NCBI GenBank assembly: GCA_902516465.1
Contig: CABXZD010000002.1
Location: 62,001 to 126,000 of the forward strand
Origin: an uncultured Pelagibacteraceae bacterium
GTDB lineage: Bacteria; Pseudomonadota; Alphaproteobacteria; Pelagibacterales; Pelagibacteraceae
Direction of reading: 5' to 3'
DNA: 64,000 nt
In this document: in pieces, positions 42,420 through 47,818 of the stretch
Position numbering within the stretch: position 1 is the first letter of the stretch
Layout of the letters: each line of letters opens with the position of its first letter
Translations under genes and position numbers: made by a program
The notes under the pieces: generated by a model
The model's database searches: none
What the model was told of the DNA's origin: nothing
What the model saw: only the letters and a program-made list of their open reading frames with translations

Positions 42420-43631
42420 TTAAACCTTTTCAAAAATTAAAGCAGCGTTAGTTCCACCAAAACCAAAACTATTAGACATTATAGTGTTTAAAGTTACTCC
42501 AGTTTCTGTTTTAGCGACTATTGGAAATTTTTTAGCCTCTTCATCCATCTCATTTATATTTGCTGATCCAGCAATGAAATTATTTTTCATCATTATTAAA
42601 CAATAGATAGCTTCATGTACTGATGCGGCTCCCAAAGGATGTCCAGATAAAGATTTTGTCGAACTAATTTTCGGAATTTGATCTCCAAAAGTTTCTTTTA
42701 CTGCATTTAATTCTGTAATATCTCCAACTGGAGTTGATGTTCCATGAGTATTAATGTAATCAATTTTATTTTTAGCAGTTGACATTGCCATTTTCATACA
42801 TCTTACAGCTCCTTCACCGGATGGTGCTACCATGTCATATCCATCTGAAGTTGCTCCATAACCAGTCAATTCTGCATATATTTTAGCCCCTCTAGCTTTC
42901 GCATGTTCATATTCCTCTAAAACTAATACCCCACCTCCTCCAGCAATTACAAAACCATCTCTAGTTTTGTCATAGGCTCTTGAGGCTGTTTTGGGTGTGT
43001 CATTGTATTTAGATGATAATGCTGTCATTGCATCAAACATTGCAGTCATAGCCCAATGAATCTCTTCACTACCACCAGCAAACACAACATCTTGCTTTCC
43101 CATTTGAATTAATTCCATAGAATTTCCAATACAGTGTCCACTTGTGGCACAAGCAGAACTCATTGTGTAGTTTGTACCTTTAATCTTAAAAGGAACAGCG
43201 AGTGTTGCTGAAGCAGTACTCGCCATAGTTCTTGGAACAATAAATGGTCCCATTAATTTTGGTGTTTTAGCTCTAGTTTTGTCTGCTGCTAAGATTACAT
43301 TTTCTATTGAGGGTCCACCTGAACCCATAACTATTCCAGTTTTAAAATTACTAATCTCATTTTCCTCTAGGCCTGAGTCGGATATTGCTTCTTTCATAGC
43401 AATGTAGTTATACGCTGAGCCTGAACCCATAAATCTAATTGTTTTTCTATCAACATGATCTTCAAGTTTGATATTAGGTTTACCGTGAACATGACTTTTT
43501 AGATTATGTTCTTTATATTCTTCAGAAAATGAAATTCCTGACCTCGAATTTGAAAGAGATTGATGAACCTCTTCTTGATTATTGCCTAAACAAGAAACAA
43601 TTCCTAAACCTGTAATTACCACTCTTCTCAT
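42420..43631 (-). CDS. fabB: 3-oxoacyl-ACP synthase I FabB
   Basis: The condensing enzyme needed for unsaturated fatty acid synthesis with FabA. The product has 403 residues. Catalytic Cys in [13 protein letters not shown] near residue 163, His in [13 protein letters not shown] near 298 and His in [13 protein letters not shown] near 333. The start overlaps the fabA stop by one base (TAATG). Confidence 0.97.
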
Positions 43632-44131
43632 TATTTAAATAATCCGACCTTTAAGCTGTCAGCTGAATAAATTTTTTTTTCGTCTGCCAAAACAACTCCA
43701 TTTGCAAGACCAACTGTAGTACCACCGGGTGACATAATTTTTTTCATATCAATTTCATATCTTACTAACTTTACATTTTGTAAAACTTCACCTGTAAATT
43801 TTACAGTCCCAACTCCTAAGGCTCTTCCTTTTCCAGGATTTCCAATCCATCCAAGATAAAAACCCACCAACTGCCACATAGCATCAAGACCTAGGCATCC
43901 AGGCATGACAGGGTCTTCTTTGAAGTGACAATCAAAAAACCAATGGTTTTTTTTAATGTCTAATTCAGCTTTTAATAAGCCTTTTTTAAAAGCGCCTTTA
44001 TCATCACTAATTTCTGTAATTCTATCAAACATAAGCATTGGTGGAAGAGGTAATTTAGCGTTACCTGGACCAAATAATTTACCATTACCGCAATTAATTA
44101 GCTCATCATATGAGTAAGTGTTTTTTTTCAT
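43631..44131 (-). CDS. fabA: 3-hydroxydecanoyl-ACP dehydratase/isomerase FabA
   Basis: Introduces the cis double bond in anaerobic unsaturated fatty acid synthesis. The product has 166 residues. The hotdog-fold active site [24 protein letters not shown] contains the catalytic His near residue 68 and the central-helix Asp near 82. It heads the fab operon and is divergent from irr across a 95-base gap that contains an Irr-box-like palindrome. Confidence 0.97.
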
Positions 44132-44190
44132 AAAACCGAGTACCTTTATTTACTTGATTTTGAGAATATATAATATAATTATAATAGTAG

Positions 44191-44207
44191 TTTAGAATAA
44201 TTATAAC
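44191..44207. promoter_or_regulatory. Irr-box (ICE)-like operator between fabA and irr
   Basis: TTTAGAATAATTATAAC, an imperfect palindrome that closely follows the alphaproteobacterial iron-control element recognised by Irr (roughly TTTAGAA-N-NTTCTAA). It ends 19 bases before the irr GTG and could also act on divergent fabA. A near copy lies before katG (15 of 17 positions identical). I infer autoregulation of irr. Confidence 0.6.
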
Positions 44208-44226
44208 TAACAATTTTAATTAAATA

Positions 44227-44625
44227 GTGAAATATATAGAAAAATTAAGAAATTCTGGATTAAGACCCACAAAACAAAGACTTCAGATATGTGAAGTTTT
44301 ATTTGATAGAGAAAAAACGTTTCATTTTACGATTAATGAATTAGAACAAAAAATTAAAAATCATACAAGCAGAAAGATATCATTAGCTACAGTATATAAC
44401 ACAGTTCATGCTTTTGAAAAAAAAGGGTATCTAAAACAAATACCAATTAATTCTAGTGAAACTTATTTTGACACAAATGTTACTGATCATCACCATTTTT
44501 ATGACTTAAAAGAAGAAAAATTGATTGATTTAGAAAATTCAGATGTAGGACCAATCAATATTTTAAAAAGAATTAACGGAAAAAAGATCAAGTCAGTTGA
44601 AGTTCTTGTAAAGCTAGAGGACTGA
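44227..44625 (+). CDS. irr: Iron response regulator Irr (Fur family)
   Basis: A 132-residue Fur-family protein with a GTG start (no ATG available). The winged helix is LRPTKQRLQICEVLF and ISLATVYNTVHAFEKKGYL; the DHHHFYDLKEEKLIDL segment carries the His cluster that in rhizobial Irr takes part in haem binding. Zinc CxxC pairs of classical Fur are absent. In alphaproteobacteria Irr represses iron-using functions and responds to haem status, not to Fe2+ directly. katG follows on the same strand, and matching operators precede both. Confidence 0.87.
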   Translation: MKYIEKLRNSGLRPTKQRLQICEVLFDREKTFHFTINELEQKIKNHTSRKISLATVYNTVHAFEKKGYLKQIPINSSETYFDTNVTDHHHFYDLKEEKLIDLENSDVGPINILKRINGKKIKSVEVLVKLED

Positions 44626-44668
44626 TCCTCAAATCAATTTAGCGTCATTTTAAACCAATTGACACTTT

Positions 44669-44685
44669 TTTAGAATCATTATAAA
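44669..44685. promoter_or_regulatory. Irr-box (ICE)-like operator upstream of katG
   Basis: TTTAGAATCATTATAAA, 37 bases before the katG ATG. It differs from the irr operator at 44191 at two positions only. It overlaps a possible -10 (TATAAA, 44680-44685) that lies 15 bases after a TTGACA (44659-44664), so a bound repressor would block the promoter. The promoter spacing is shorter than ideal; the operator match is the stronger evidence. Confidence 0.58.
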
Positions 44686-44721: not shown

Positions 44722-46959
44722 ATGAGCACTGAAAATTTTAAAGAAAAATCTTTTAAAACAAATCAACTAAGTAAATGTCCTTTTACAGGAACTGGAACAC
44801 CTGCAAAGTTTTCTGCGGGTAGAGGTCAATCAGTAAGAGATTTTTGGCCGAATAGTTTAAATCTCAAAATACTTAGTCAACATTCTAGTTTATCAAATCC
44901 TATGGATAAAAAATTTAATTACGCTAAAGAATTTAAAAAACTAAACTACAAGGCTCTTAAAAAAGATTTAAAAAAATTAATGACAGACTCCCAAGAGTGG
45001 TGGCCAGCTGATTATGGTCATTACGGACCTTTATTCATAAGATTAGCTTGGCACGCAGCTGGTACATATAGGACAGGTGATGGAAGAGGTGGAGCTGGGA
45101 CAGGAAATCAAAGATTTGCACCCCTTAATTCTTGGCCAGACAATGTTAATTTAGATAAAGCAAGATTACTTTTATGGCCTATTAAAAAAAAATATGGAAA
45201 TAGGATTTCTTGGGCAGATTTATTTATTCTTGTTGGAAACGTTGCCTTAGACTCAATGGGATTTAAAACATTTGGTTTTGGTGCTGGGAGAACAGATATT
45301 TGGGAACCAGAGGATGATATTTATTGGGGATCAGAAAAAGAGATGTTAGGTGTTGAAAGGTACACTAAAAATAGAGATTTAGAACAACCACTTGGTGCTT
45401 CACATATGGGTTTAATATATGTAAATCCCCAAGGTCCTGATGCTAACCCTGACCCAAAACTTGCTGCACATGATATTAGAGAAACATTTGGTAGAATGGC
45501 AATGAATGACTATGAGACAGCAGCATTAGTTGCAGGTGGACATACATTTGGAAAATCACATGGAGCTGCACCCGAATCACACAAAGGTCCTGACCCTGAA
45601 GCTTCAAAAATTCAAGAGCAATCAACTGGATGGAATAGTGGATATAAATCTGGAAAAGGTGTTGATACAATCAGTAGCGGTATAGAAGGTGCTTGGACAC
45701 AAAATCCAATTCAATGGGATATGGGTTATTTAGACTGTTTATATGATCATGAATGGGAACTTACAAAAAGTCCTGCTGGTGCTCATCAGTGGACCCCAAA
45801 AAAAAATGGGCAAAAGATAAAAATGGTTCCCGATGCACATGATAAAAATGTTTTTCATCCTCCTATGATGCAAACAACAGATATTTCGATGAAAGTCGAT
45901 CCAAGCTACGGACCAATTACAAAGCATTTTCATAGAAATCCGAAAGAATTTCATGATGCTTTTGCTAGGGCTTGGTTTAAATTAACACACAGAGATATGG
46001 GACCAAGAGTATGTTATCTTGGTAGCGATGTTCCAAAGGAACAATTAATTTGGCAAGATCCAATTGATAAATCAAAGTATAAATTAAAATCGAAAGATAT
46101 TAAAGATTTAAAATCAAAAATATCAAAATCAAAAATATCAGTTTCTGAACTAGTATCTACTGCTTGGGCATCAGCTTCAACATTTAGAGGGTCAGATAAA
46201 AGAGGTGGAGCCAATGGTGCAAGAATAATGTTGGAGCCGCAGAAGAATTGGAAAGTCAATAATCCATCTAAGCTTTTAAAGATTATCTCAGCTTTAAAAA
46301 AAATTAAAAAACAATTTGATGGTAAAAAGAAGAGTGTTTCAATGGCTGATTTGATTGTATTAGCCGGAGGAGTAGGAGTTGAAATGGCTGCTAAAAAAGG
46401 CGGCCATACAATAAAAGTTCCTTTCTCGCCAGGAAGAGGAGACGCTAGGCAAGATCAGACTGATGTGAACTCATTTGGATTACTAGAACCCCAAGCAGAT
46501 GGTTTTAGAAATTATCTTAATGGAGACAAGTCAATTGTATCAGCTGAAGAAAAGCTTATTGATAAAGCTCAATTAATGGGTCTTACGGCTCCAGAAATGA
46601 CAGTTTTAATTGGTGGAATGCGTGTGTTGGATACTAACTTTGATGGCTCGAAACATGGAGTCTTTTCTAAAAAGCCTGGTGTACTTACTAATGATTATTT
46701 TACTAACTTACTAGATATGAACATAACATGGAAAGAGTTAGATAAATCTGAACAGGTATTTATTGGAGTTGATAGAAAAACTAAGAAAACCAAGTGGAAG
46801 GGTACACGAGTTGATCTTATATTTGGTTCAAATTCACAACTAAGAGCTCTAGCTGAAGTTTATGCGTGTGAAGACTCTAAAGAAAAATTTATCAATGACT
46901 TTGTGGCAGCCTGGGTAAAAGTTATGAATGCAGACAGGTTTGATTTAAGATTAAACTAA
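44722..46959 (+). CDS. katG: Catalase-peroxidase KatG
   Basis: A bifunctional haem catalase and peroxidase. The product has 745 residues, the standard tandem-domain length. The distal site is [17 protein letters not shown] (Arg-Trp-His); the Met-Tyr-Trp adduct partners are present (Tyr in [11 protein letters not shown], Met in [13 protein letters not shown]); the proximal His is in [12 protein letters not shown]. The C-terminal domain has [16 protein letters not shown]. It starts with a PFTG motif ([13 protein letters not shown]). Control by the adjacent Irr is inferred from the operator. Confidence 0.98.
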
Positions 46960-46979: not shown

Positions 46980-47576
46980 ATGGCAGCAACAATCTTCAAA
47001 GATTTTTACGAAGTACCTAATCTAAATTTTGATATTTCAAAACTAAGAGAAGACTTAGATAAGATATTAAAAAAAAAAAATTTCAACTCACTAGGAATTA
47101 CACATTTTGGTGCAATACCAATAAACCAAATTCCTAATGATGAGAGTTCTATTAAAGGTAATAATGTAAGAGGAAAATATTGGACAATAGCAGATGAAAC
47201 TGGCAAAGAAGTTTCAAGGGATGTCGCTATTGATGAATCAAAATATACCCAATTGCTTCCAGAATTTGAAAAAACTTATTTTAAAGAAGTGTTCGAAAAA
47301 TTAAGAGAGAGATATAAATTAGGAAGAGTAAGACTTTTGTTGAAAGAGCCAAGATCAACTCTCAGCTGGCATAAAGATCCTGAATGTAGATTACATATAC
47401 CAATTATAACAAACAAAGGTTGTTCTATGGTAATTGAAAATGTTGCTAAACATCTTCCTGCCGATGGAAAAGTTTGGATAACAAACAACACCAAATATCA
47501 CAATTTTTTTAACGGGGGGGAACAGGCAAGAATTCACCTGGTAGCGTGCGTTCTAGAAAGTCCTTTTAAAAATTAA
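46980..47576 (+). CDS. Aspartyl/asparaginyl beta-hydroxylase-like protein
   Basis: A 198-residue predicted 2-oxoglutarate/Fe(II) oxygenase. The core fits the Asp/Asn hydroxylase family: WHKDPECRLHIPI near residue 132 (iron His-x-Asp and the following RLHIP), then TKYHNFFNGGEQARIHLVACV near 170 (distal His, and Arg for 2-oxoglutarate). Substrate unknown. It starts 20 bases after katG, and its stop overlaps the next gene (TAATGG), so katG, this gene and the DUF2061 gene probably form one transcript. Confidence 0.82.
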   Translation: MAATIFKDFYEVPNLNFDISKLREDLDKILKKKNFNSLGITHFGAIPINQIPNDESSIKGNNVRGKYWTIADETGKEVSRDVAIDESKYTQLLPEFEKTYFKEVFEKLRERYKLGRVRLLLKEPRSTLSWHKDPECRLHIPIITNKGCSMVIENVAKHLPADGKVWITNNTKYHNFFNGGEQARIHLVACVLESPFKN

Positions 47577-47818
47577 TGGAGTTCACAAACGGTATTTTTA
47601 ATGCTGCTGGTAGCATATATAAAAATAACAAAGGTTCGATATTAAGAACAATTGTTTACACGATAGGGCATTTTGCTATTGCTATTACTGTTTTGATGCT
47701 TGTTGCCGATGTGTCTTTTGCTGTAGCATTAACGGACGCGATTGTTGAACCAATAGCTAACTCAATATGGTACTTTATTTTAGATAAATGGTGGGCTAGT
47801 AGAACAAAAAATAATTAG
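47576..47818 (+). CDS. DUF2061 membrane protein
   Basis: An 80-residue protein with two membrane helices: TIVYTIGHFAIAITVLMLVA near residues 25-45 and AVALTDAIVEPIANSIWYFI near 48-68, ending DKWWASRTKN. The pattern (RTI.YT..H, then W.....R) matches the DUF2061 family, found singly or fused to sulfur-assimilation proteins. Function unknown. Its ATG overlaps the stop of the hydroxylase-like gene. Confidence 0.8.
   Translation: MEFTNGIFNAAGSIYKNNKGSILRTIVYTIGHFAIAITVLMLVADVSFAVALTDAIVEPIANSIWYFILDKWWASRTKNN

Follow-up and report, generated by a model that had tools for sequence, protein, structure and literature searches.

A conserved Irr-type operator in front of an exchangeable peroxidase gene behind irr in Pelagibacteraceae, predicted by comparison of genomes

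The iron response regulator Irr and its ICE-type operator sites have been described in several Alphaproteobacteria. In R. sphaeroides, Irr binds the ICE at mbfA and at the peroxidase gene ccpA, the mbfA start lying inside the ICE, and the available portion of that work reports no binding at katE (PMC3413700). According to the accessible part of another publication, Irr can repress or activate (PMC7762939). As for SAR11, KatG has been reported in offshore genera (PMC12636525) and rubrerythrin in 4 of 28 genomes (PMC11366302), in the available parts of both papers, and the operator treated below is not described in the corresponding part of the iron-limitation paper on Ca. P. ubique (PMC2864753). 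The excerpts available from the literature on Bradyrhizobium, Rhizobium and Rhodobacter do not name katG as an Irr target. A full-text search found no paper on Irr and katG in Pelagibacter, and one on Irr and rubrerythrin in SAR11 found only the iron-limitation paper; an ICE between irr and rubrerythrin may have been predicted earlier.

Few cells in the ocean are as abundant as SAR11 bacteria, whose handling of peroxide is discussed in community models. The locus presented here lies in a stretch of 64,000 nucleotides from an uncultured Pelagibacteraceae bacterium, called the window in what follows. Its features are these:

43631..44131, minus strand: fabA, divergent from irr and a conserved neighbour, start at 44131
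44154..44159, plus strand: candidate irr -35 TTGATT, found by eye, conserved as TTGATT/TTGAGT
44176-44181, plus strand: -10-like TAATTA for irr, 16 bp after TTGATT, found by eye
44191..44207, plus strand: ICE-type site TTTAGAATAATTATAAC 5' of irr, predicted autoregulatory operator
44227..44625, plus strand: irr, Fur-superfamily iron response regulator, 132 aa, GTG start, best match IrrA, domain PF01475
44638..44654, plus strand: weak ICE-type site TTTAGCGTCATTTTAAA, 14/17, centred 31 bp 5' of the centre of the main site
44659..44664, plus strand: predicted katG -35 TTGACA, read from the sequence
44669..44685, plus strand: main ICE-type (putative Irr) operator TTTAGAATCATTATAAA, in the katG promoter
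44680..44685, plus strand: predicted katG -10 TATAAA, inside the operator, 15-bp spacer from the -35
44722..46959, plus strand: katG, bifunctional haem catalase-peroxidase, 745 aa

The KatG protein scores 1133.7 bits against the catalase-peroxidase HPI model TIGR00198, above its cut-off of 770.25. Beyond katG lie genes for an Asp/Asn beta-hydroxylase-domain protein (46980-47576) and a DUF2061 membrane protein (47576-47818), one or both of which also occur 3' of katG in many relatives.

A preliminary description of this DNA had pointed to two near-identical, ICE-like 17-mers, one in the divergent gap between fabA and irr and the other over a possible katG -10, and it was right on sequence, coordinates and placement alike. 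The sites at 44191-44207 and 44669-44685 have 15 of 17 bases in common, with mismatches at positions 9 and 17 only, and they agree at 15 and 16 of 17 positions, respectively, with the palindrome TTTAGAATNATTCTAAA, which we take to be the ICE consensus and to which 17/17 sites next to irr elsewhere in the Alphaproteobacteria conform. They are the sole plus-strand matches of at least 15/17 in the window, and a whole-genome pattern scan of the genome that holds it (G000) returned these two exact TTTAGAATNATTATAA matches and no others. As a bare count the two sites are weak and not beyond chance: 0.56 matches of at least 15/17 are expected in the window, and two or more arose in 9% of 100 Markov simulations. 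Nor is there enrichment of looser matches, with 40 three-mismatch occurrences in the window against 38.16 expected and 79 two-mismatch occurrences in G000 against 85 for a reversed control pattern; the genome-wide motif count, showing no excess over chance, was dropped as proof of the sites. It is position and conservation, not number, that establish them as real.

Conservation was followed in two samples of the family, whose genomes are related, so that site counts are not independent. The first comprises 147 genomes, 87 of them with an irr of the window type (matches down to 3.1e-35); all 87 loci were taken and turned to one strand, katG being next in 65 and not in 21, and one locus (L094), whose contig ends inside irr, being dropped from the downstream counts. 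The second, which may overlap the first, consists of 80 named Pelagibacteraceae assemblies from single cells or metagenomes. Between irr and katG, a site of at least 15/17 is present in 64 of 65 gaps (0.13% in dinucleotide shuffles); between irr and rubrerythrin, it is present in 18 of 21, and in all 21 at 14/17 or better (0.14% in dinucleotide shuffles). At the threshold of at least 14/17, the second sample has the site downstream of irr in 79 of 80 loci and upstream in 75 of 80. The downstream exception (L290) possesses irr and katG and has nothing above 12/17 on either side. The palindrome downstream of irr is conserved across SAR11 relatives, and the operator that the preliminary description had put in front of katG falls within the predicted katG promoter and is tied to irr by comparison.

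When the gaps were aligned on the site, 84 of 86 had at least 14/17 to TTTAGAATNATTATAAA, and positions 11-16 proved near invariant across these 84 loci. A -35 with at least five of the six TTGACA bases lies 14-17 bp 5' of TATAAA in 61 of the 84, and is a perfect TTGACA in 39. The right half of the site departs from a perfect palindrome because the same bases serve as the -10, and the predicted operator, set between -35 and -10, is in the position of a repressor. A mirrored second site at an offset of 31-32 bp 5' accompanies it in 12 of the 84 family loci, and the weak copy at 44638-44654 is its positional counterpart in the window; in 19 of the 84, by contrast, the best left match falls at an offset of 45-47.

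The site on the other side of irr has a narrower distribution. It reaches at least 15/17 in 50 of the 87 fabA-irr gaps (0.22% in shuffles) and in none of the 50 irr loci sampled in other families, and is probably a lineage-specific addition in SAR11 on the strength of that comparison. The candidate irr promoter would set the ICE at 44191-44207 over the transcription start. Self-repression of irr, as claimed in the preliminary description, is likely in this genome and its lineage, but it would not be universal.

What stands behind the downstream site varies. In irr-bearing relatives that lack katG, genes for a rubrerythrin (PF02915), a CCG-domain Fe-S protein and a DUF3501 protein come next. 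Of the 147 genomes, 94 have katG, 21 have this rubrerythrin and none has both; the 53 near-complete genomes have katG in 38 and rubrerythrin in 11, and the 80 named loci have katG in 47, rubrerythrin in 32 and a peroxiredoxin in one. This last locus (L306:4502-5026, isolate AG-333-B23) carries a Redoxin (PF08534) peroxiredoxin preceded by two ICE-type sites forming a paired operator; the 61 genomes of the genus contain six relatives of that peroxiredoxin, none at the irr place on its contig. The gene after irr is, as judged from these comparisons, a peroxidase slot, in which the occupant has been exchanged repeatedly and the predicted operator kept. The preliminary description had named katG, which is the predicted target here, but it missed that at least three enzyme types share the slot and that rubrerythrin is probably its original occupant. 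On a FabA+FabB tree, which may itself be disturbed by recombination, the katG/rubrerythrin state of 95 loci corresponds to 12 changes and the presence of irr to 6, and well-supported branches force at least nine changes of the rubrerythrin label. Five loci or genomes (G134, L289, L291, L293, L299) combine a divergent irr, of 62-63% identity, with a katG 90-91% identical to that of the window, a pairing that points to separate recombination of regulator and enzyme.

The slot is not confined to SAR11. An Irr match is present in 115 of 190 genomes of the class, and 50 irr loci from other families were inspected: the 30 best, and 20 picked by hand, mostly from small genomes. Rubrerythrin lies 3' of irr in 34 of the 50, within the stretch examined, and an ICE of at least 15/17 lies downstream of irr in 15, four of them (L161, L174, L181, L197) with a perfect 17/17 site between irr and rubrerythrin. 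From its occurrence in these other families, the arrangement of irr, ICE and rubrerythrin is probably ancestral in Alphaproteobacteria, and the upstream site would be the SAR11 addition. One locus outside the family (L187, in G313) has a 16/17 ICE and katG next after irr. A different order, katG directly 5' of irr on the same strand, occurs in two genomes from other families (G332:C9 and G351:C52, of the L332/L351 type). In a tree of 112 KatG proteins, the slot enzymes occupy four places, supported branches force four label changes, and a single clade of slot KatGs is rejected (AU p 4.6e-77, on a quick tree); since label changes can be gains or losses, katG entered the slot up to four times.

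Loci from which irr is missing provide a natural counterpart. In eight genomes (G001, G006, G049, G062, G073, G077, G122, G130), katG diverges directly from fabA; irr is missing from the gap and was not detected elsewhere in these genomes, which are 55-95% complete. Only one of the eight (G006) has a site of at least 15/17 in this gap, and two have one of at least 14/17; where katG lies away from fabA, in the irr-less genera g5, g9 and g12, no promoter in 14 reaches 14/17. A weaker Fur-type match is still present in at least five of the eight (G001, G049, G073, G077, G130), none of which has a site of at least 14/17, so that site loss follows the loss of irr and not that of a Fur gene. By this comparison, the predicted operator is dependent on the presence of irr. 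A broken 5' end of irr, apparently a fossil of its loss, was seen by eye in the fabA-katG gap of G130 (L126). In irr-less genera, katG follows genes for the permease and the ATPase of an ABC transporter (L138, L142) or, at L136, has an FTR1 iron-permease gene nearby, neighbours that suggest that a link between katG and metal uptake may persist by another route.

These observations lead us to read the downstream site as an Irr operator controlling the peroxidase slot, with a probability of roughly 80%. It might instead belong to a Fur or Mur paralogue, given that the boxes of the Fur superfamily are AT-rich palindromes and that most irr-bearing genomes, including G000, contain the second, weaker Fur-type match; the absence of the site from the five irr-less genomes known to retain this gene, and the identity of the sequence with the alphaproteobacterial ICE, of which other families have perfect copies next to irr, make this very unlikely. 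That transcription alone has conserved the motif, as the -10 region of a strong AT-rich promoter and nothing more, is highly improbable. Its right half is indeed the -10, and loose matches do occur at chance frequency, but the TTTAGAAT half, which has no role in the promoter, is nevertheless near invariant, G5 being kept in 77 of the 84 aligned loci, and that half is missing from most irr-less katG promoters as well as from most of 30 Prx6 promoters, several of which have TATAAT.

An Irr operator at the slot promoter could also serve activation, which is unlikely in our estimation: the site occupies the spacer between -35 and -10 and extends into the -10, the classical place of a repressor, and the comparable mbfA site of R. 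sphaeroides fits repression in the available part of that study (PMC3413700). The case for an activator comes from the excerpts at hand of two papers, in which direct activation by Irr is common (PMC7762939) and rubrerythrin mRNA of Ca. P. ubique is 1.57-fold up under iron limitation, a state in which Irr should be DNA-bound, with neither fur nor irr responding to iron (PMC2864753). That rise speaks against simple repression at low iron or haem and leaves room for a peroxide-led or an activating role of Irr. The preliminary description had further proposed that the upstream site might govern the fab operon and so tie unsaturated fatty-acid synthesis to haem status. The site is 60-76 bp upstream of the fabA start, and the divergent fabA-irr arrangement is widely conserved; yet 37 of the 87 family loci with this arrangement lack a site of at least 15/17, as do all 50 upstream regions in other families (where fabA is not always present), no conserved fabA promoter could be discerned by eye over the site in the family gaps, and fabA is not mentioned in the accessible excerpts of the literature on Irr DAP-seq in Brucella. 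Control of fabA-fabB-fabI by Irr is decidedly unlikely, and we do not uphold the proposal.

Among nine families, the window protein matches NCBIfam IrrA best, with 125.9 bits, less than the cut-off of 150, and scores 116.8 bits against FeRespRegIrr (cut-off 170); its FUR domain is clear (PF01475, 69.8 bits, cut-off 23.1). All 87 family proteins and all 50 from other families possess the haem-binding HxH motif, H88 and H90. Alignment to Bacillus PerR (2fe3), with the ligand numbering that we take to apply to PerR, brings H33, D82, H88, H90 and D101 into register with the PerR ligands, and this His3-Asp2 set for a regulatory metal site is invariant in all 87 family proteins. The parallel with PerR-kat pairs drawn in the preliminary description gains support from these ligands; they are, however, common to Irr in general, with four of them in 50 of 50 proteins from other families and D82 in 47 of 50, and are neither PerR-specific nor a SAR11 novelty. 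The protein has a single cysteine, C22, and no CxxC structural zinc site, and it stays below the cut-offs of the PerR models (PerRA, 60.2 bits against 200; PerRB, 53.2 against 250). A CP-type haem regulatory motif is absent from the first 45 residues of all 87 family Irr proteins.

The comparison of genomes shows a predicted operator that lies in the promoter and depends on irr, and an enzyme behind it that has been exchanged. In the mechanism that we propose, an Irr dimer would bind the 17-bp ICE between -35 and -10 behind irr and, once bound, would block RNA polymerase; its release would allow the slot enzyme to be made, KatG here and rubrerythrin with its two partner genes elsewhere, and through the upstream site Irr would limit its own expression in this lineage. 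The signal might be haem; it might also be peroxide, through the His/Asp metal site or a haem site. On the most likely reading, Irr represses both the slot gene and irr until haem or peroxide inactivates it. More tentatively, and with some doubt on our part, SAR11 Irr may be chiefly a PerR-like switch of peroxide defence that senses peroxide, through its His/Asp site, no less than haem, with the operator as a docking site for unrelated peroxidases: the haem enzyme KatG, which would have entered more than once, the di-iron rubrerythrin and, once, a thiol peroxiredoxin, to which a second peroxiredoxin promoter would be added in some strains.

Sites away from irr were sought as exact matches in the 61 genomes of the genus, irr loci being set aside, and 20 stretches were looked at. 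Two turned out to be irr loci after all (L326, L327), and three (L315, L318, L322) are peroxiredoxin promoters, two of which do not differ in their upstream sequence. Several sites lie inside genes, one gene being hit in two genomes (L312, L321), and the others are scattered. These exact sites do not add up to a wider iron regulon, and no iron genes lie near the one-mismatch sites of G000 (L003-L006). At the three peroxiredoxin loci, the ICE-like site covers the -10 of a Prx6-like gene that is often divergent from an MBL-fold gene (gap near 1960-2037). A systematic survey of Prx6-like loci (L328-L357) gave sites of at least 14/17 in 8 of 30, seven at the -10, or in 11 of 33 when the three pattern-found loci are included; the peroxiredoxin promoter of G000 has no ICE-like site of at least 14/17. 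In G013, one of the eight, irr was not detected.

For the SAR11 lineages that carry katG, the locus offers a concrete and testable switch for a catalase gene, and strains without katG would use rubrerythrin under the same operator. It is also a clear case in which a regulatory site stays and the enzyme behind it is exchanged, and one in which the decay of an operator after the natural loss of its regulator can be followed.

Set beside described systems, the locus resembles PerR-kat pairs, in which a Fur-superfamily repressor likewise adjoins a catalase or peroxidase gene and the five ligand positions are the same; it differs from them in that the Irr of the window lacks the CxxC zinc site and scores far below the PerR cut-offs, and in that its site is presumably of the ICE type rather than a PerR box. 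With the Irr/ICE systems of Bradyrhizobium, Rhizobium and Rhodobacter, it shares the 17-bp palindrome, the promoter position and a Fur-superfamily regulator with HxH, and peroxide-related targets, mbfA and ccpA, are also known for R. sphaeroides from the available part of that study (PMC3413700). In contrast to these systems, SAR11 Irr has no CP-type motif in the region considered, and its best-supported target is the gene adjoining irr, katG or rubrerythrin. Closest of all is the irr-rubrerythrin-(Fe-S)-DUF3501 arrangement of other Alphaproteobacteria, which has the same slot and the same predicted operator as SAR11, where many lineages have katG instead of the three-gene cassette.
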